Assembly (NCBI GenBank): GCA_949373145.1
Contig: CASICI010000011.1
Location: 1-64,000, forward strand
Direction: 5' to 3'
DNA: 64,000 nt
Source: an uncultured Phycisphaerales bacterium
Lineage (GTDB): Bacteria > Planctomycetota > Phycisphaerae > Phycisphaerales > SM1A02
Shown here: positions 35,814-45,819 of the stretch, piece by piece
How the letters are laid out: each line of letters starts with the position of its first letter
Numbering within the stretch: the first letter of the stretch is position 1
Translations under genes and position numbers: made by a program
The notes under the pieces: generated by a model
Told to the model about the DNA's origin: nothing
Seen by the model: only the letters and a program-made list of their open reading frames with translations
The model's database searches: none

Positions 35814-38483
35814 ATGAACATGCTGTACACGCTCATTTTGACCATTCTGGCCCCCTTCGTGACCCCGGTCACGGCTCAGGATGCCGTGGCGCCCGACCGA
35901 TTCCTGGTGGCGCAGCAACGAAAAGTCGCGTTTTTCGGCTTTGAAGAGGTTGGTAGCTTCTTCACGCCACTTCCAGCGCCCTTTTTTCGGGTGCTGACCT
36001 CCGTCACCAGCCGTCCTGGATTCCCTCCCTTCGGTTCGGTGGGCGTTGATGAGTCCGTGGCGTTTTCTGGTGACTGGTCCCTCGCATTCGACGTCGATGG
36101 GGCGTCGATCGCTGTGGCAGTGCCCACGGCCCGGATTCCGATCTATCCCCAGAGTGAATACGAGGTTCGGGTCCGTGTTCGAACGTCCGGGCTCGCTCAT
36201 GCAGGGGCGTCGCTGGTGGTTCGACTTCATGATCTCGACGGGAGAGAGATTCCCGGAACGAAACGTGAATCGGTCCCCGTCCGCACCAACGGCGAGTGGA
36301 CGATGCTGTCGGTTCGTCCGCCCACCGACATTCAATCCGCGGCCGATCTCACCTTCGAGCTCCACCTCAAGCAGGATGAGAGACCGGATCTTTCCGGCAA
36401 GGTCTGGTTTGATGAGATCGAGGTCTGGCAGCTTCCTCGCATGAGCCTGACGGCTCGACCGATCTCCGGGGTCACCCGGTTGCCCGAGCGGCCGACCCTG
36501 AAAGCGTCCTTGAACGACCTCGCCACCGGAACGCTGACTGCGGTCCTCAGCGTCTTCGACCTCGACGGTACGCTTCGCGTGGAACGTCGTGAGCCGATCT
36601 CCCGAGGAAGAACATCTCTGGTTCTGAACTTCGACGATCTTCCGGTGGGGTGGTATCGAGGACGTCTGTCCCTTCTCGATGGCGACACCCTGCTTGCCCG
36701 CGAGGATCAGGCGCTCGCGATTCTTCCTGAATCCAGCCGCAGCACCCTGACCTACGAGGCACCCCATTTCGGTGTGTCCTTTTCCGATTCCTTCGAGGAT
36801 CCGGCTGCTTCCGAACTGGAGTTCGCGTCGGTGCTTCGCCCTGATTACGTTTCGGTTCCGGTCTGGCAGTCGGGACGCCCCGCTCGTCTGGATTCCGAAC
36901 GTTCCAGAGGCATGGACGCCTTCGTCGATGCCCTGCATGCGTCCGGAATCGAGCCCGTGTTCGAACTTTCGGGACTTCCTTCCGATCTCACTCTGCAGAA
37001 CATCGGGCGGACGGGTGATGACGACGTCCTCGAGCTGATCGGTCGCGGTGATCTCAAGGTCCTTGATCTTCTGTCCAACTGGATGGCTCAGTACGGCGAC
37101 GAGGTTTCTCGTTGGCGAGTCGATTCCCCCGGCCGGGTGAGTCCGCTTCAGATCGATTCAGCTCTGGGTGAGATCGATCAACGCACTCGTACCTTCGTGG
37201 CGGCTCCGATCCTCGAGCTCGACGTGGATATTCTCGATTCTCGGTCGGACTCCGACGACTCCAAAACCTTCGAGACAGAATTCCTTCCGATGCGTTTCCT
37301 CGGTGACGGCTTCGATGGTCCGCTTCGCAATGGCGAGTCAAGTGGTCTTCTGGTGATCGATTCCGGACGTGCTTTTCAAGATGATCGAATGCGAGCCACT
37401 CGCGTGGCCCGTGATCTCGTCGAAGCGTGGGCCCGTGGAGTGGACTATCTCGAGCTTGAAGCGCCCTGGAACCAGAGAAGTGGCGCCTTCTCTCTCAAGG
37501 GCCTCGATGCCGCCGGATACGTCTTTCACATGATCGCGTCACGGTTGTCGGCTCGCGGGCCACAGATTCCAGTTCCCCTGGGACGAGGACTGAATGCCTA
37601 TCTCCTCAAGGGGGAGTCCGAAGAACCCATGATCGTGGCCTGGGCGACCGAAGGCTCCGCCACCATGGAACTCGCTCCGGAATTCGGTTCGATCCGCATC
37701 ACCTCGATCGATGGGACCACTTCATCCCTGCTCGATGCCCGAGGTCCCCGTCTGATTCAGCTCGACGATGCGCCCGTCTTTCTGACCGGATTCGACAAGA
37801 AGATCGCACGGTTTCGAGCCGAAGCGTCGATGACGCCGGAATTCATCGAAGCCTCCACCGGTGTCCATGAATGCATGTTCAGCCTGCACAATCCCTGGAC
37901 CGAAGCCATCGAAGTCCGTCTTCGCCCCGTCGGGCCCGCCAGTTTCCGTTTTCAGCCCATGAGCCGTCGTGTCACGATCCAGCCCGGAGCTCGAGAGCGA
38001 GTGGGGTTCGAATTCACGTTTCCCAGAACCCAGGTCGATGGCGCGCTTGATCTGCGATTGAGTGCCGAGATCATCGGTGCCCAGGAACAGACCGCCCAGT
38101 TGCTGGTTCCGACGAGTGTCCAATCAAGTCGCATGGCGTTGGAAAGTTCCTGGCGTCTTTCGCGTGATGCCGGCGGACGTGACAATGGAGTCCTCGTCAG
38201 TCTTTCCGCCTACAACAGCGGCAGCACTCCCTTGCTGCTCGAGGCGTTCTGCTCCGCGGTCGGATTCGCACCGATGCGCAAGGCGATGCCTGAAATCCTT
38301 CCCGGTGAGACGACCACCCGAACCTTCTTCTATCCGGATGGCCAGAACGTTCTGCCCGGGCGCGAGATCCTGGTGGGGCTTTCGGAACTCGAATCAGATG
38401 GGTATCTGGTCCGTCGGCTCGCGATCACCGAGGATGTGGGTTCCCTGTTGGTGACGGAACCGGTTCTCGATGACATGGAGTGA
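35814..38483 (+). CDS. Large secreted beta-rich protein of unknown function
   Basis: The 889-residue protein has a signal peptide (MLYTLILTILAPFVTPVTAQ). Residues ~45-210 look like a jelly-roll carbohydrate-binding domain (SGDWSLAFDVDG, YEVRVRVRTSGLAHAG, KVWFDEIEVWQ). A middle part (~300-600) has barrel-like features (FGVSFSDSF, VPVWQSGRPARLD, GVDYLELEAPWNQRSG), and the last ~250 residues are beta-sandwich-like (TIQPGARERVGFEFTFP). The layout resembles extracellular glycan-active proteins, but no catalytic pair was identified. It ends 11 bp from the convergent 38495 gene. Confidence 0.6.
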   Translation: MNMLYTLILTILAPFVTPVTAQDAVAPDRFLVAQQRKVAFFGFEEVGSFFTPLPAPFFRVLTSVTSRPGFPPFGSVGVDESVAFSGDWSLAFDVDGASIAVAVPTARIPIYPQSEYEVRVRVRTSGLAHAGASLVVRLHDLDGREIPGTKRESVPVRTNGEWTMLSVRPPTDIQSAADLTFELHLKQDERPDLSGKVWFDEIEVWQLPRMSLTARPISGVTRLPERPTLKASLNDLATGTLTAVLSVFDLDGTLRVERREPISRGRTSLVLNFDDLPVGWYRGRLSLLDGDTLLAREDQALAILPESSRSTLTYEAPHFGVSFSDSFEDPAASELEFASVLRPDYVSVPVWQSGRPARLDSERSRGMDAFVDALHASGIEPVFELSGLPSDLTLQNIGRTGDDDVLELIGRGDLKVLDLLSNWMAQYGDEVSRWRVDSPGRVSPLQIDSALGEIDQRTRTFVAAPILELDVDILDSRSDSDDSKTFETEFLPMRFLGDGFDGPLRNGESSGLLVIDSGRAFQDDRMRATRVARDLVEAWARGVDYLELEAPWNQRSGAFSLKGLDAAGYVFHMIASRLSARGPQIPVPLGRGLNAYLLKGESEEPMIVAWATEGSATMELAPEFGSIRITSIDGTTSSLLDARGPRLIQLDDAPVFLTGFDKKIARFRAEASMTPEFIEASTGVHECMFSLHNPWTEAIEVRLRPVGPASFRFQPMSRRVTIQPGARERVGFEFTFPRTQVDGALDLRLSAEIIGAQEQTAQLLVPTSVQSSRMALESSWRLSRDAGGRDNGVLVSLSAYNSGSTPLLLEAFCSAVGFAPMRKAMPEILPGETTTRTFFYPDGQNVLPGREILVGLSELESDGYLVRRLAITEDVGSLLVTEPVLDDME

Positions 38484-39204: not shown

Positions 39205-42200
39205 TTGCGCGTGTCCTCAAACGACATCGACAGACAGTCACATTCCGACGGCTCCGGGGCCACGTCGCATGACAGCGAGAGACTCACACGAAATCTCGCC
39301 TGTCTCGCCGTGTCCGCACCGGAGGTTGCCGCGCAGATCGAGCAGGCGAATGGAAGTCCGGTCACCTTTCAGACGGCCGCCGATGGTGCCACCGTCGGTC
39401 TGGTGTCCGAAGGGCGCAGACTGGCCAGTCTGCACCAGCCCCTGGTCGAAGCACGCAACTGGGCCGAGCGAGTCGATCCCGCGGAGACTGCCTGTGTTCT
39501 CGTCCTCGGTTTCGGAGTCGGTCACCATGTCGAGGCTCTGCTCACCCGCTTGAATCGGACCGGTGTGGTCCTCGTTCATGAGCCCGACGTCGCACGACTT
39601 CGAACGATCCTCTCCAACATCGACTGCACGAAGTGGATGGATCCCAGATTCGTTCGCTGGATCACGGACGCCGAAGACGAGGTTCAGTTCACCAGATGTT
39701 TCAGCGACATCGAGACGCAGATGGTCGCCGGTACGAAGATCCTCGAGCATGCACCGTCGCTTCGTGGATTCGAAGATCAGGTTCGAACGATCAGTGCCCG
39801 TCTGACGGATGCGGTCAACAGTGCAAGAACGACGATGACCACGACTTTGATGCGCAGTGCTGGGACCGTTCGAAACGAACTTATGAACGTCGATCATTAC
39901 GCGCTTGGTTCGGGGATCGGTGCACTCTCCGGTCTGGCGCAGGGGCGGCTCGGTGTGGTGGTGAGTGCGGGTCCCAGTCTTCAGAAGAACATCAAGATGC
40001 TCGGGCGAAGCGGTGTTCGAGATCGATGCATGATCATCGCGGCGCAGACGGCCCTGCGTCCTCTTCTCGACGCGGGCATCAAGCCGCATTTCGTCACGGC
40101 GCTTGATTACCACCACATATCGAAGCGTTTCTATGAAGGTCTCAGCAAGAAGGACGTCGAAGGAATCACCCTGATCGGTCTGCCCCAAGCGCACCCGGTC
40201 ATCGCCGACAGTTGGCCCGGAGCGATCCGGTGGTGCCGTGCGATCGTCCTCGAACACATACTCGGGGATACGGGTCCCGATGTTCAGTCACTTGAATCAG
40301 CCACCACCGTGGCGCATCTTTCCTACCACTTCGCCCGTCATCTCGGGTGTGATCCGGTGGCCTTCATCGGTCAGGACCTCGGCTTCACCGATGGACTCTA
40401 CTACGCACGTGGCACCGCGATCGATGATGTCTGGTCGACCGAGCTCAATCCCTTCAACACCATCGCCAAGATGGAGTGGGAACGGATCGTCCGGCATAGA
40501 GGCATGCTTCATCGTCTGGAGGACATCAACGGCCGTTCGATCCTGACTGACCGGCAGATGCTCACCTATCTGAGACGTTTCGAGACCCACTTCACCGCGG
40601 ATGTGCAGAAGGGTCTCACCATCATCGACGCCAGCGAAGGCGGCGTTCGCAAGGCCTCGACCGAAGTCGCGTCGTTGCGTGCCACGCTCCGTGCCCATGC
40701 ACCCAGAGGAAGTGACTCCATCGCGGCCATTCCGATGCCGGACAAGGCGACGGATTCCAGGCAGGCGGATCGGGTGCGCGACCGACTGAACGCGCTTCTG
40801 AACGATGTTCACGCCCTGAATGCGGTCTCACGTGACACCGCGGGACTGCTTGACCGGCTGGCAGCCTGTCTCGAAGACGATGCCCGATCCCGCAAGGTGT
40901 TCGATGCGATCGAAGTGAAACGTCATGCGGTCGATGATCTTTCAGAGGCCTTTGAATTCGTCAATCAGATCAATCAGCTCGGCGCCTTCAAGCGATACCT
41001 CGCGGATCGCAGGATCGACATTCAATCGAACGACGATCCTCGTGACATGCAGCGTCTTCAGATTCAGCGCGATCTCGTCAACGTCGAGTTCCTGGCACAG
41101 GCGGGGGATGATGCCGCGGACATGCTCGAGGATTCGATCAAGCTGCTCGGTTCAGGAAAGACCTCCGCGCCCGACGCTCCTCGATCGAGGAATCGTGTCG
41201 AAGCCGCTCCGGTCGATCTCGATCCGGGTGCGAAGCGACCGACCGAGCGCGTCAGCGCCTTCATTCCGATCGATCCCATGATGGGTGGGGCCGGGAGTCG
41301 TCGAAGTCTGCGCAAGTCGATCGTCTCCCAGAGCGTGCTCCAGTCCACCTTGGAACGGATCGCTTCCTCGGAGTTGTTGGACTCGATCATCCTGCTGGTT
41401 CCTGATGAATGTGATCTCATCGAGGAACTCGATCTGTCCAGAGTCAGACTTCCGGTCACGGTCGAACGTTGCGGTTCGTCGGCATTCGGTGCCGAGCACG
41501 AGGTGATTCTCACCGCACGCATGTTCGCCGATCGATGCTGGCGGGGAGGCATCGCGGGAATGACCGTCTTCGATGAGAATCTCTCCGCGGAGCACACCGC
41601 CCGGGTGATGTCCAGAGATGGAATCAATGGTGCGGTGATCTGCGGGCCGGACTGGCCGCTGGTCGAAGTGCTGGGACAGGGGGGCATCGACGCGCTCATC
41701 GAACGCTGGCGCGAACACGATGGTCGAAAGGAATTCATCTTCACCCAGGCACCTCCCGGACTTGGAGCCTGTCTGGCATCAGCCGATCTGATCGGTCGTC
41801 TTCAGCCGAACAACCGCCTCGCCACGTTCGGCGCCATGCTCGGCTACCGACCGGAACGTCCCGAGCATGATCCCATCGCGCGCGAAGGGAATGTGCCGAT
41901 CGATGCCCAGGTCCGACGTTCGCAGGTGCGTGGCATCTTCGATTCCGCTCGGTGTCGTCTCAGAATCCGACGTGCACTGCAGCCATTCATGCAGTCCGAG
42001 ATGAATGAAACGATGCCGCTTTCGAATCGTGAGATCGTGGATCAGCTCGAGACCATGCGACGTGGCGGGCTGCCGTCCTTCACTCCGCGGCACGTGCAGA
42101 TCGAACTGTGCACCGGGCGACTTGGTTCGGGTTCGTGCAGTCCGCATCGCTACGGCACGATCCAACGCGAACCGATTACCATGTCCCGTTTCAAGCGAAT

Positions 42201-42924
42201 CATCTCCGATCTCGGGGACGGGAACGATTCCCTGGTGACGCTGGGTGGAATCGGTGATCCACTGCAGCACCCCGGGTGCGTCGACTTCATTCGCATGGCG
42301 CTCGACGCGGGCATCATCGGTGTTCATCTCAGAACCGAACTTCAATGTTCTCCGGCCGTCCTACGCGACCTCGCGACCTCCGGCGTGGGCGTGGTCTCCG
42401 TGGAGTTGAACGCCGATTCACCGGAAACCTACCACCGGGCGATGGGGCATGACGGATATGCCACGGTGATGGCCAACATCGAGGAACTCATTCGATCCCG
42501 ACGGTCCATTCGTGGCTCCGGCCCCGGGGCGCTTGCGCTCCCCTGGATCGTTCCGCGGATTCAGCGATGCTACGACACCTACGAGGACATCGAGCCGTTC
42601 TTCGAACGGTGGCAGCGCGTGCTCGGCACGCCGGTGATCGATCCTCAGATCGTGATCGATCCGCTGGAGAAGATTGGTCCGAACACTCTGGCGGATGCAT
42701 CGAATCCCGAGCGGACCATGATCAGTGAATCCTTCCGCCGCATGACGATCCACAGCGATGGCTGGGTTCCCACATCGGAGCTCGATCTCAACGGAACACG
42801 ATGTGTCGGCAACGTCGATGAGCACTCGATCATGGAGCTCTGGCGAAAAGTGATTCACGAGCGTCGCCGTGCGCTCCGTGAAGACGGACCCCGTGCCTTT
42901 CAATTGAGGACTTATCAACCGTGA
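39205..42924 (+). CDS. Maf-type flagellin glycosyltransferase fused to cytidylyltransferase-like and Cys-poor radical-SAM/SPASM-like domains
   Basis: The 1,239-residue protein has three parts. Residues ~90-420 match Maf (DUF115/MAF_flag10): VLVLGFGVGHHVEALL, then GVVVSAGPSLQKNI, PHFVTALDYHHI and VAFIGQDLGFTDG. Residues ~680-920 resemble SpsF-like cytidylyltransferases (VSAFIPIDPMMGGAGSRRSL, and GPDWPLVEVL in the place of the metal-binding region), but the nucleotide loop is degenerate. Residues ~960-1220 follow the radical-SAM plus SPASM pattern (TLGGIGDPLQHPG, PWIVPRIQRC, IHSDGWVP, GNVDEHSIMELW), but the CxxxCxxC triad reads G-x3-C-x2-H and the SPASM cysteines are missing. Maf proteins transfer sialic-like sugars to flagellin. 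The start is TTG 39205 or GTG 39211. It overlaps neuA by 4 bp. Confidence 0.8.
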   Translation: MRVSSNDIDRQSHSDGSGATSHDSERLTRNLACLAVSAPEVAAQIEQANGSPVTFQTAADGATVGLVSEGRRLASLHQPLVEARNWAERVDPAETACVLVLGFGVGHHVEALLTRLNRTGVVLVHEPDVARLRTILSNIDCTKWMDPRFVRWITDAEDEVQFTRCFSDIETQMVAGTKILEHAPSLRGFEDQVRTISARLTDAVNSARTTMTTTLMRSAGTVRNELMNVDHYALGSGIGALSGLAQGRLGVVVSAGPSLQKNIKMLGRSGVRDRCMIIAAQTALRPLLDAGIKPHFVTALDYHHISKRFYEGLSKKDVEGITLIGLPQAHPVIADSWPGAIRWCRAIVLEHILGDTGPDVQSLESATTVAHLSYHFARHLGCDPVAFIGQDLGFTDGLYYARGTAIDDVWSTELNPFNTIAKMEWERIVRHRGMLHRLEDINGRSILTDRQMLTYLRRFETHFTADVQKGLTIIDASEGGVRKASTEVASLRATLRAHAPRGSDSIAAIPMPDKATDSRQADRVRDRLNALLNDVHALNAVSRDTAGLLDRLAACLEDDARSRKVFDAIEVKRHAVDDLSEAFEFVNQINQLGAFKRYLADRRIDIQSNDDPRDMQRLQIQRDLVNVEFLAQAGDDAADMLEDSIKLLGSGKTSAPDAPRSRNRVEAAPVDLDPGAKRPTERVSAFIPIDPMMGGAGSRRSLRKSIVSQSVLQSTLERIASSELLDSIILLVPDECDLIEELDLSRVRLPVTVERCGSSAFGAEHEVILTARMFADRCWRGGIAGMTVFDENLSAEHTARVMSRDGINGAVICGPDWPLVEVLGQGGIDALIERWREHDGRKEFIFTQAPPGLGACLASADLIGRLQPNNRLATFGAMLGYRPERPEHDPIAREGNVPIDAQVRRSQVRGIFDSARCRLRIRRALQPFMQSEMNETMPLSNREIVDQLETMRRGGLPSFTPRHVQIELCTGRLGSGSCSPHRYGTIQREPITMSRFKRIISDLGDGNDSLVTLGGIGDPLQHPGCVDFIRMALDAGIIGVHLRTELQCSPAVLRDLATSGVGVVSVELNADSPETYHRAMGHDGYATVMANIEELIRSRRSIRGSGPGALALPWIVPRIQRCYDTYEDIEPFFERWQRVLGTPVIDPQIVIDPLEKIGPNTLADASNPERTMISESFRRMTIHSDGWVPTSELDLNGTRCVGNVDEHSIMELWRKVIHERRRALREDGPRAFQLRTYQP

Positions 42925-43649
42925 CTCAGACAGATGATGTGAATTCGATCACCGCCGTGATCGTCGGTCGGCGTGGCAGCAAGGGATTTCCCAACAAGAA
43001 CTCCCGAGTTCTTGGTGGAAGACCGATGGTGGTGCATTCGATCGAGCAGGCGAGGCAGGCCGCATGCATCGATCATGTGATCGTCTCGACTGATGGCGAG
43101 GAGATCGCTGCCGCCGCGCGTGCGGAGGGTGTCGAGGTCATCATGCGACCGCCATCGCTTGCATCCGACGAGGCGTCGGTCGATTCCGCGGTCCGCCACG
43201 CGATCGAGTCGTCCGGAGTCGCTTCTCGAAGAGTGGTGATTCTCTACGCGAACGTTCCGATCAGACCGCGTGACCTGATCGACGATGCGGTGCAGCATCT
43301 CGAGAAGACCGGAGCGGACAGTGTTCAAAGCTACGAGTCAGTCGGAAAACATCACCCATGGTGGATGGTGCGCGTCGGTGAGAATGACTCGATCAGTGCA
43401 TGGCATCAGAACGACGTCTATCGCAGACAGGATCTTCCGCCAGCCTATTTTCCCGATGGCGGTGTGATCGCCCTCACTCGCGAATCACTCTTCACGGTGG
43501 AGCCCGATGCACCGCATGCGTTTTTGGGACGTGACCGCCGTGCGATCGTCAATGCGATCGGTTCCGTCATCGACATCGACGACGAGATCGACATGTTGGT
43601 GGCTGAAGCGATCATCAAACGCCGGGAGACCGTCGAGGGTGGTCCATGA
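42921..43649 (+). CDS. neuA: CMP-nonulosonic acid (sialic/legionaminic) cytidylyltransferase
   Basis: The 242-residue enzyme joins a nonulosonic acid to CMP using CTP, producing the donor for glycosyltransfer. The N-terminal nucleotide motif AVIVGRRGSKGFPNKNSRVL matches the family (normally A-R-x-G-S-K-x-x-x-K-N), followed by VIVSTDGEEIAAAA, RPPSLASDEASVDSAV and DIDDEIDMLVAEA. GTG 42921 overlaps the stop of the Maf fusion (GTGA), and its end overlaps neuB. Which acid it uses (Neu5Ac, legionaminic or pseudaminic) cannot be told from the sequence. Confidence 0.9.
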   Translation: MTQTDDVNSITAVIVGRRGSKGFPNKNSRVLGGRPMVVHSIEQARQAACIDHVIVSTDGEEIAAAARAEGVEVIMRPPSLASDEASVDSAVRHAIESSGVASRRVVILYANVPIRPRDLIDDAVQHLEKTGADSVQSYESVGKHHPWWMVRVGENDSISAWHQNDVYRRQDLPPAYFPDGGVIALTRESLFTVEPDAPHAFLGRDRRAIVNAIGSVIDIDDEIDMLVAEAIIKRRETVEGGP

Positions 43650-44710
43650 CATCCACCGATGATCCACTGACGGGTGAAGCACCGACGCCCTGCGGCACCT
43701 CCCATCCATTCGTGATCGCCGAGATCGGTGTGAATCACGATGGTGACCCCGCCCGCGCGGAAGCCCTCGTCGATGCCGCGGCCGAGGCCGGCGCGGATGC
43801 CGTGAAGTTTCAATGGTTCGAGCCCCGACGTCTCTTGTCACGAAGTGCCGGACTCGCCGCCTATCAGACAGCCGCGGGCGAGCTGGATCCCATCACCATG
43901 CTCGATCGGCTTCGACTCGATGCCGACGGACTCGAACGTGCCCGGCTGCGAGCCGTCCACCACGGACTCCGTTCCGTGGTCACCGTCTTCTCCCCCGAAC
44001 TGGTGGGGGAGGCGGATCGATTGGCGTGGGATCTGTACAAGACGGCTTCACCTGATGTCGTGAATCGACCGCTGTTGGAAGCCGTGGCCTCCACCGGCAG
44101 ACCCATGATCATCAGCACCGGTGGCGCCACGGTGACCGAAGTCCGTCAGGCCCTCGAATGGATCCCCGAAATTCGTCCCACCCTGCTTCACTGCGTCAGC
44201 AGTTATCCCACGCCCATTGAATCGACCGCCCTCGGAGGCATCGGCGCACTGGCCCGTGCGTTCGCAACGACCGTCGGATACAGCGACCACACCGTGTCCG
44301 TCCATACCGGTGGGCTGGCCGTGGCGGCAGGTGCCCGTGTTCTGGAAAAACATCTCACCTGGAATCGTGATGCCGAAGGTCCTGATCACGGGGCGTCGAT
44401 CGAACCCGAGAACTTCCGAGAGTACGTTCGATTCGCACGACGGTCCGCGATCATGCTGGGCGCGTCTGACAAGATTCCATTGCCTCTTGAACGAGACGTC
44501 ATGGCGACCTCGCGACAGTCCGTCGCGGTACGGCGTGATGTTCCCGCCGGTCAGGTGCTCGTCTCCGGGGATCTCACGACCATGCGTCCCGGGACAGGTG
44601 TTCCGGCCGCCTCGCTCTCGACGTTCGTCGGGTGCAGGACTCGCCGTGCCCTTGAGGGCGGGACGCTCCTCGAGCCTGCTTCAGTGGAAAGACCGGAGGC
44701 GGCATCATGA
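43646..44710 (+). CDS. neuB: Nonulosonic acid synthase (NeuB/LegI family)
   Basis: The 354-residue enzyme condenses phosphoenolpyruvate with a ManNAc-type sugar. FVIAEIGVNHDGDPARA, AAAEAGADAVKFQWFEP, YKTASPDVVNRPLL and TVGYSDHT form the NeuB barrel signatures, with metal-binding His and Glu. The C-terminal ~65 residues are the SAF/antifreeze-like domain (SVAVRRDVPAGQVLVSGDL). Its ATG overlaps the neuA stop and its stop overlaps the neuC start by 4 bp. The family includes NeuB, LegI and PseI; the subtype is not resolved. Confidence 0.93.
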   Translation: MTSTDDPLTGEAPTPCGTSHPFVIAEIGVNHDGDPARAEALVDAAAEAGADAVKFQWFEPRRLLSRSAGLAAYQTAAGELDPITMLDRLRLDADGLERARLRAVHHGLRSVVTVFSPELVGEADRLAWDLYKTASPDVVNRPLLEAVASTGRPMIISTGGATVTEVRQALEWIPEIRPTLLHCVSSYPTPIESTALGGIGALARAFATTVGYSDHTVSVHTGGLAVAAGARVLEKHLTWNRDAEGPDHGASIEPENFREYVRFARRSAIMLGASDKIPLPLERDVMATSRQSVAVRRDVPAGQVLVSGDLTTMRPGTGVPAASLSTFVGCRTRRALEGGTLLEPASVERPEAAS

Positions 44711-45819
44711 ACCATCGTCGAGTCCTCGTCGTCACCGGAAGCCGGGCTGAATTCGGCCTGCTGTCCTCGACGCTCGACGCACTTCATGAACACTCCGCCA
44801 TCGAGTGTTCGCTGGTGGTCGCTGGTTCACATCTGATCGGAAACGAGCCGACGGTTCGCGAGATCGAATCGAGGTACCCCATCGTCGGATTGGTCGAGAT
44901 GCAGCTCGACTCAGAACCACGGACCCGCGGTTCGTACGGATTCTCATTGGCCCGAGGTGTCGAAGGATTCACCACTCTGTTCACGCGTCACGAACCCGAC
45001 GTCGTGCTGATTCTCGGCGATCGAATCGAGATCTTCGCGGCGGCCAGTGCGGCTTCGCTTCTTGGAATCAGGGTGGCGCACGTTCATGGAGGTGATGTGG
45101 CCGTCGGTGTCGCTGACGATTCGATGCGACATGCGACCACCAAGCTTTCGCATCTCCACCTTGCAGCCACCCGACTCAGTGCGGAAAGAATTCTCGCGAT
45201 GGGGGAGCATCCCAAGTCCGTCTTCGTGGTGGGTTCACCTGCGGTCGACGGACTGGATTCGATCCCCCCGCTGGACGAGTCCACCTGGGTCTCTCAAGGA
45301 TCACCGGATATTCTGGTGCAGATGCATCCCACCGGACACTCGGACGAGGTCGAACATGGTCTGGCTCTGAGTCTCTTCGAATCACTTTCCGACGCCGGAC
45401 GTCTGGTCGTGATGGCGCCCAACGTCGATCCCGGCAGTGACGGCATTCGTCGTGCCATTCTTGAAAGTGGTCTGCCACTGATCGAACATCTGCATCGCAC
45501 TGAATTCGTCGGTCTGCTTCGACGTCTTCGACTCTTCGTCGGAAACAGCAGTGCCGGCCTTCTGGAATGTGCTGCATTGGGCGTTCCCGTTCTCGATGTC
45601 GGTGATCGACAGTCGGGACGCGAGCGAGGTGTGAACGTGACGCATGTCGATGTCGTTACCGGACCTGAGTTCGAGCGGGCATTGAACGAAGCCTCCGGTG
45701 GCTCGAAGTCACGGATCGACGAGAGATTCGGTCCCGGCGATACCGGTCGAAAGATCGCCGATCTGCTCGCCGACCTCGATTTCGAAGACATCCCGGTTCG
45801 AAAACGCTGGTATTCATGA
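44707..45819 (+). CDS. neuC: UDP-GlcNAc-type 2-epimerase, hydrolysing (NeuC/LegG family)
   Basis: The 370-residue GT-B fold enzyme hydrolyses a UDP-GlcNAc-type sugar with 2-epimerisation, giving the ManNAc-type substrate of NeuB. VVTGSRAEFGLLSSTLDAL, VLILGDRIEIFAAASAA, VAHVHGGDVAVGVADDSMRH and LFVGNSSAGLLECAALGVPV are characteristic of NeuC rather than WecB (SRAEFG and HGGD). It is the last gene of the four-gene operon, all joined by 4-bp overlaps. Confidence 0.93.
   Translation: MNHRRVLVVTGSRAEFGLLSSTLDALHEHSAIECSLVVAGSHLIGNEPTVREIESRYPIVGLVEMQLDSEPRTRGSYGFSLARGVEGFTTLFTRHEPDVVLILGDRIEIFAAASAASLLGIRVAHVHGGDVAVGVADDSMRHATTKLSHLHLAATRLSAERILAMGEHPKSVFVVGSPAVDGLDSIPPLDESTWVSQGSPDILVQMHPTGHSDEVEHGLALSLFESLSDAGRLVVMAPNVDPGSDGIRRAILESGLPLIEHLHRTEFVGLLRRLRLFVGNSSAGLLECAALGVPVLDVGDRQSGRERGVNVTHVDVVTGPEFERALNEASGGSKSRIDERFGPGDTGRKIADLLADLDFEDIPVRKRWYS

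Follow-up and report, generated by a model that had tools for sequence, protein, structure and literature searches.

A Maf flagellin glycosyltransferase fused to a spiro-SPASM relative without cluster cysteines in the Phycisphaerales

Introduction

Maf glycosyltransferases transfer nonulosonic acid to flagellin in the cytoplasm. How Maf selects its acceptor is still poorly understood (PMC11339370). The Aeromonas Maf binds flagellin on its own (PMC4065374), and the literature searched yielded no accessory protein for Maf. FlmG of Caulobacter, which is described as belonging to another class of cytoplasmic O-glycosyltransferase, likewise glycosylates flagellin and bears an attached flagellin-binding domain, in which its substrate specificity resides (PMC7591256). 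Its resemblance to the Maf fusion described here is by analogy only.

Spiro-SPASM proteins (TIGR04321), an orphan family of spirochaetes, consist of a cytidylyltransferase-like part followed by radical-SAM and SPASM parts. Neither a function for spiro-SPASM nor any paper on it was found in the open-licence literature searched. The pseudo-SAM/SPASM protein TIGR04347 would, judging by its name, have a SPASM-type radical-SAM fold that is counted as pseudo-SAM. Maf, spiro-SPASM, and pseudo-SAM proteins are known families; no description of the fusion of Maf with a spiro-SPASM relative, or of the graded loss of cluster cysteines reported here, was found in the open-licence literature searched, and no paper on Maf combined with radical SAM was found there either.

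Results

The window (the whole stretch of 64,000 nucleotides analysed, from an uncultured member of the Phycisphaerales) contains a single open frame of 1,239 codons, at 39205 to 42924 on the forward strand, in which a Maf half precedes cytidylyltransferase-like and radical-SAM/SPASM parts (Table 1). The Pfam MptE-like/Maf domain was detected at residues 224 to 396 (E value of 1.4e-31; 110 bits, above the curated cut-off of 34.6), and the Maf core motifs AGPSL (residues 255 to 259) and GQDLGFTDG (residues 389 to 397) are kept. Pfam matched Radical_SAM to residues 989 to 1098 below the curated cut-off (E value of 8e-6) and SPASM very weakly, and did not find CTP_transf_3 in the fusion protein. 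The best NCBIfam match was spiro-SPASM TIGR04321 at residues 959 to 1216 (E value of 2e-11), with a score of 43 bits that falls below the cut-off of 250 bits. An 889-codon frame upstream (35814 to 38483) had no Pfam match.

Structure prediction bore out the preliminary description of three domains in one frame, with Maf, cytidylyltransferase-like, and radical-SAM/SPASM folds. Maf 5mu5, from Magnetospirillum, was the top structural match of the full-length model (residues 26 to 1225; pLDDT of 88, pTM of 0.80), with an E value of 1.5e-17 and a TMt of 0.47. A model of residues 671 to 1239, built from 61 sequences (pLDDT of 92, pTM of 0.93), gave for the region from about residue 680 to the end the folds that had been named, not unrelated ones. 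The closest solved fold for the first part of this C-terminal half was the Leptospira cytidylyltransferase 6oew, with further matches to KdsB and IspD (Table 1) and to NeuA (Z of about 14). The last part best matched the radical-SAM/SPASM enzymes SuiB, MoaA, SkfB, and BtrN, with Z of about 20. The identification of the middle cytidylyltransferase fold rests on predicted structure because Pfam alone would miss it. This pseudo-domain has the family-specific conserved motifs WRGG (residues 779 to 782), DE (790 to 791), DW (816 to 817), and PG (851 to 852), and the GxGDPxxHP motif of the radical-SAM barrel is kept at residues 1015 to 1023.

Table 1. Features of the fusion gene and the genes that follow it (positions in the window)
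Feature	Position	Strand	Description
Fusion gene	39205..42924	+	1,239 codons, TTG start; alternative start GTG at 39211
Maf flagellin glycosyltransferase half	39205..41109	+	Residues ~1-635; Pfam MptE-like; structural match 5mu5
Flexible linker	41164..41232	+	Residues 654-676; pLDDT <50 in full-length model (model residues 629-651)
Cytidylyltransferase-fold pseudo-domain	41245..41994	+	Residues ~681-930; 6oew Z 19.5, KdsB/IspD Z 14-15
Radical-SAM fold without cluster cysteines	42070..42708	+	Residues ~956-1168; SuiB, MoaA, SkfB Z ~20
SPASM remnant, no cluster ligands	42709..42921	+	Residues ~1169-1239; Pfam SPASM E 0.097
CMP-nonulosonate (PseF/NeuA-like) cytidylyltransferase	42921..43649	+	CTP_transf_3 E 1.4e-23; PseF E 7.6e-28, below cut-off
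NeuB-family nonulosonate synthase	43646..44710	+	4-base overlap with preceding gene
NeuC-type UDP-GlcNAc 2-epimerase	44707..45819	+	TIGR03568, 289.5 bits, cut-off 235.9; 4-base overlap with preceding gene

The PseF/NeuA-like gene shares 4 bases with the end of the fusion gene, and the run of 4-base overlaps through NeuB and NeuC suggests a single transcript for CMP-nonulosonate supply. Many other members of the order likewise have NeuB near the fusion gene, and at one distant unfused locus the gene order was Maf, homologue of the C-terminal half, NeuB, and NeuC. Flagellin genes are present in the genome bearing the fusion gene. The N-terminal half is like described Maf proteins (PF01973) in sequence, predicted fold, core motifs, and the nonulosonate genes in its operon; the fusion protein differs from them in bearing about 560 extra residues of what would be a retired spiro-SPASM protein.

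The preliminary description had the two C-terminal domains coming from separate sugar enzymes that were joined here. This was not the case. Homologues from the phylum and spirochaete spiro-SPASM proteins aligned jointly across all three domains, and this full-length homology indicates that the cytidylyltransferase-like and radical-SAM/SPASM parts were inherited as one pre-existing protein, homologous to spiro-SPASM. The joint alignment and the existence of stand-alone homologues rule out the independent fusion of two unrelated enzymes. Among 22 spirochaete genomes, reached with a spirochaete flagellin query, 21 had a TIGR04321 protein above the cut-off. A profile of the phylum's unfused homologues matched all 16 of the spirochaete proteins fetched, the best cases spanning from profile position 18 to 45 through position 570. 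In the other direction, the best TIGR04321 score of a stand-alone relative in the phylum was 159 bits (cut-off of 250). In contrast to the fusion protein, the spirochaete proteins stand alone and do not adjoin Maf; in them Pfam detected Radical_SAM and SPASM along with traces of CTP_transf_3. TIGR04347 matched unfused relatives weakly (E value of 2e-11 at best) and gave no match to the window protein at an E value of 1.

Several further features of the spirochaete loci were observed. A protein of about 330 to 345 amino acids is encoded directly behind spiro-SPASM at loci L250 (9701 to 10684), L252 (7757 to 8779), L251 (5796 to 6785), and L264 (7415 to 8452); the two that were tested, from L250 and L252, had no Pfam or NCBIfam match. 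This gene is followed by a cytidylyltransferase gene, which at L250 shares one frame with a methyltransferase. At spirochaete locus L266 (4834 to 8526, reverse strand) a 1,231-codon frame has Maf in its second half preceded by about 600 unassigned residues, which is a different fusion.

Seven aligned cysteine positions were compared in 35 fused proteins, 28 unfused proteins of the same phylum, 16 spirochaete proteins, and 4 paralogues. The paralogues, which are ordinary radical-SAM/SPASM proteins, all had the complete set. The radical-SAM triad was complete in none of the 63 proteins from the phylum (0/35 fused and 0/28 unfused), so that the relatives with all three cluster cysteines that had been sought were not found among them, compared with 10 of the 16 spirochaete proteins. 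All four SPASM cysteines were present in 0/35 fused proteins, 25/28 unfused proteins of the phylum, and 16/16 spirochaete proteins. The reported loss of the radical-SAM and SPASM cysteines is supported: no fused protein in the comparison keeps either complete set. On these sequences the loss was apparently stepwise: the radical-SAM cluster disappeared before fusion, and loss of the SPASM cluster falls inside the fused clade. Since the triad is present in 10/16 spirochaete proteins, its loss occurs within that family too; the six proteins that have lost it are those of L250 (Treponema putidum), L254, L257, L259, L261, and L264.

In the fusion protein the canonical radical-SAM cysteine columns correspond to R972, G976, and S979, an alignment that is somewhat uncertain in this loop, and the SPASM columns correspond to I1173, S1191, and two deleted columns. 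The string G974-x3-C978-x2-H981 that had been read as the altered cluster motif does exist, but its register is off by two from the aligned columns, and C978 is not conserved. Sequence error, chimeric assembly, and chance are ruled out by 34 further fused relatives with the same absence of cysteines, some of them from single-contig genomes. A noncanonical cluster built from other cysteines was also considered and rejected: none of the cysteine columns is shared by all fused proteins, and the best-kept one (27/35) falls where the window protein has no cysteine. The cytidylyltransferase loop is degenerate, as had been described: the CTP-binding loop of the GSxRxPxK type is absent from the fusion protein, which by alignment has lost the catalytic loop of 6oew, and from all relatives examined. 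It is intact in the product of the gene that follows the fusion gene.

Relatives of the C-terminal half were found in 120 of 151 genomes of the order, and none were found in plasmids or viral contigs. In four families of the order (f1 to f4) the C-terminal half is joined to Maf; in two others (f5 and f6) the homologue has a gene of its own, of about 550 to 620 codons, located behind a separate Maf gene. The Maf gene directly preceded the stand-alone homologue in all 20 unfused loci of the order, the pairs mostly overlapping or abutting and a few lying up to 0.3 kb apart. Elsewhere in the phylum, Maf lay directly before the homologue at 9 of the 12 loci whose homologue was full-length and cluster-less. 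The fused proteins grouped together on a tree of 70 sequences (support of 100/99) with one exception, L080, which consists of two overlapping frames resembling a frameshift. The fused and unfused labels on the tree need only two changes, one gain and this exception. This result indicates that the fusion happened once, and its tie to the loss of the SPASM cysteines is therefore a single observation.

Purifying selection acts on the C-terminal half as strongly as on Maf, with dN/dS of about 0.1. Values for close relatives within two fused genera were 0.07 to 0.12, similar to those of the Maf half, and two more distant pairs gave about 0.15; where dS exceeds 1 the values are only approximate. The C-terminal half and Maf were both present in 119 of the 151 genomes and both absent from 27. 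Three of the 5 discordant genomes had Maf without a detected C-terminal half, and these genomes are incomplete or fragmented. The C-terminal half was also strongly associated with flagellin and FlhA across genomes. The Fisher values for these co-occurrences take no account of common descent and do not represent probabilities of independent events. Four genomes of family f1 (G075, G084, G117, and G135) have flagellin and FlhA and lack Maf and the C-terminal half together.

Four other genomes (G008, G023, G120, and G138) have FlhA and the C-terminal half, and no flagellin match or NeuB was found in them. In the first three (loci L086, L091, and L269) Maf is cut to its central catalytic domain with the C-terminal half still attached; the contig of G138 is too short to judge. 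A similar truncation of Maf to the catalytic domain, fused to the C-terminal half, is present in G102 (L087), which has flagellin. The persistence of the Maf core and the C-terminal half as a unit argues for partnership of the C-terminal half with the catalytic core. Retention of the C-terminal half in four genomes without detectable flagellin or NeuB indicates that the acceptor there may be different from flagellin.

Discussion

The loss of the cluster cysteines and the degenerate cytidylyltransferase loop support the suggestion that the C-terminal half was converted to a noncatalytic role, and it may have become a scaffold that binds CMP-sugar or protein partners. We consider it fairly likely that the fusion joins a Maf sialyltransferase-like enzyme to a retired spiro-SPASM protein that serves as a noncatalytic protein partner of Maf and helps to place the acceptor. 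As expected of the Maf family, nonulosonic acid would be made and CMP-activated by the products of the next three genes and then transferred to flagellin by Maf. The C-terminal half would no longer make a radical or activate a sugar. It would most likely associate with the catalytic core of Maf through protein-protein contact, and would place flagellin or another flagellar export substrate at the active site; covalent fusion could have rendered the SPASM cluster dispensable. Acceptor positioning is preferred by analogy, given the precedent of FlmG and the connection with flagellar export. Several observations count against this explanation. Flagellin binding by the Aeromonas Maf alone (PMC4065374) means that an additional acceptor-binding domain is not obviously needed, and the spirochaete homologue is located away from Maf. 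The four genomes without detectable flagellin or NeuB still have the C-terminal half, and the fusion, having occurred once, offers a single case for its link to SPASM-cysteine loss.

A role on the donor side is unlikely. In this scheme the cytidylyltransferase fold, although incapable of making CMP-sugar, would still bind CMP-nonulosonate or serve as a dock for the genuine CMP-sugar synthetase from the next gene, and would hand the donor to Maf. The fold matches CMP-sugar synthetases, and D816, which aligns with the DxP acid, is kept in 34/35 fused proteins, 17/18 unfused proteins of the order, and 16/16 spirochaete proteins, yet the equivalent aspartate is not kept in members from other classes. 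A true cytidylyltransferase is encoded by the next gene here, and one is also found a short way downstream at the spirochaete loci examined; however, no member seen has kept the CTP-binding loop, and four genomes retain the C-terminal half without NeuB. Nonradical chemistry with, for example, bound SAM or nucleotide and no cluster appears improbable. Conservation of the GxGD/EP..HP motif and of barrel residues would fit such an enzyme, as would the new loop, conserved within families, that stands in place of the lost cluster loop, but catalytic ligands are missing from both canonical active sites in every fused member and no conserved cysteine set is left. That the C-terminal half is a neutral remnant decaying after an accidental gene fusion is very improbable and already contradicted: although cysteines were progressively lost and the most diverged members of family f2 have lost the SPASM end, the dN/dS is about 0.1, the frame stays open across four families of the order, and motifs other than the cysteines are conserved.

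A broader form of the partner explanation can be offered tentatively, at less than even probability. A former radical enzyme of flagellin-glycan metabolism, sharing ancestry with spiro-SPASM, might have been retired stepwise, losing the radical-SAM cluster first and the SPASM cluster at or after fusion, to become an obligatory, cofactor-free partner of Maf throughout the phylum. If so, the SPASM cluster of the unfused members would have a structural part in the Maf complex, for which covalent fusion was the replacement.

The gene pairing and the fusion tie relatives of spiro-SPASM to Maf glycosylation. The graded series of proteins with the triad and the SPASM cysteines, with the SPASM cysteines only, and with neither provides a probe of the role of an auxiliary iron-sulfur cluster once radical chemistry is gone.
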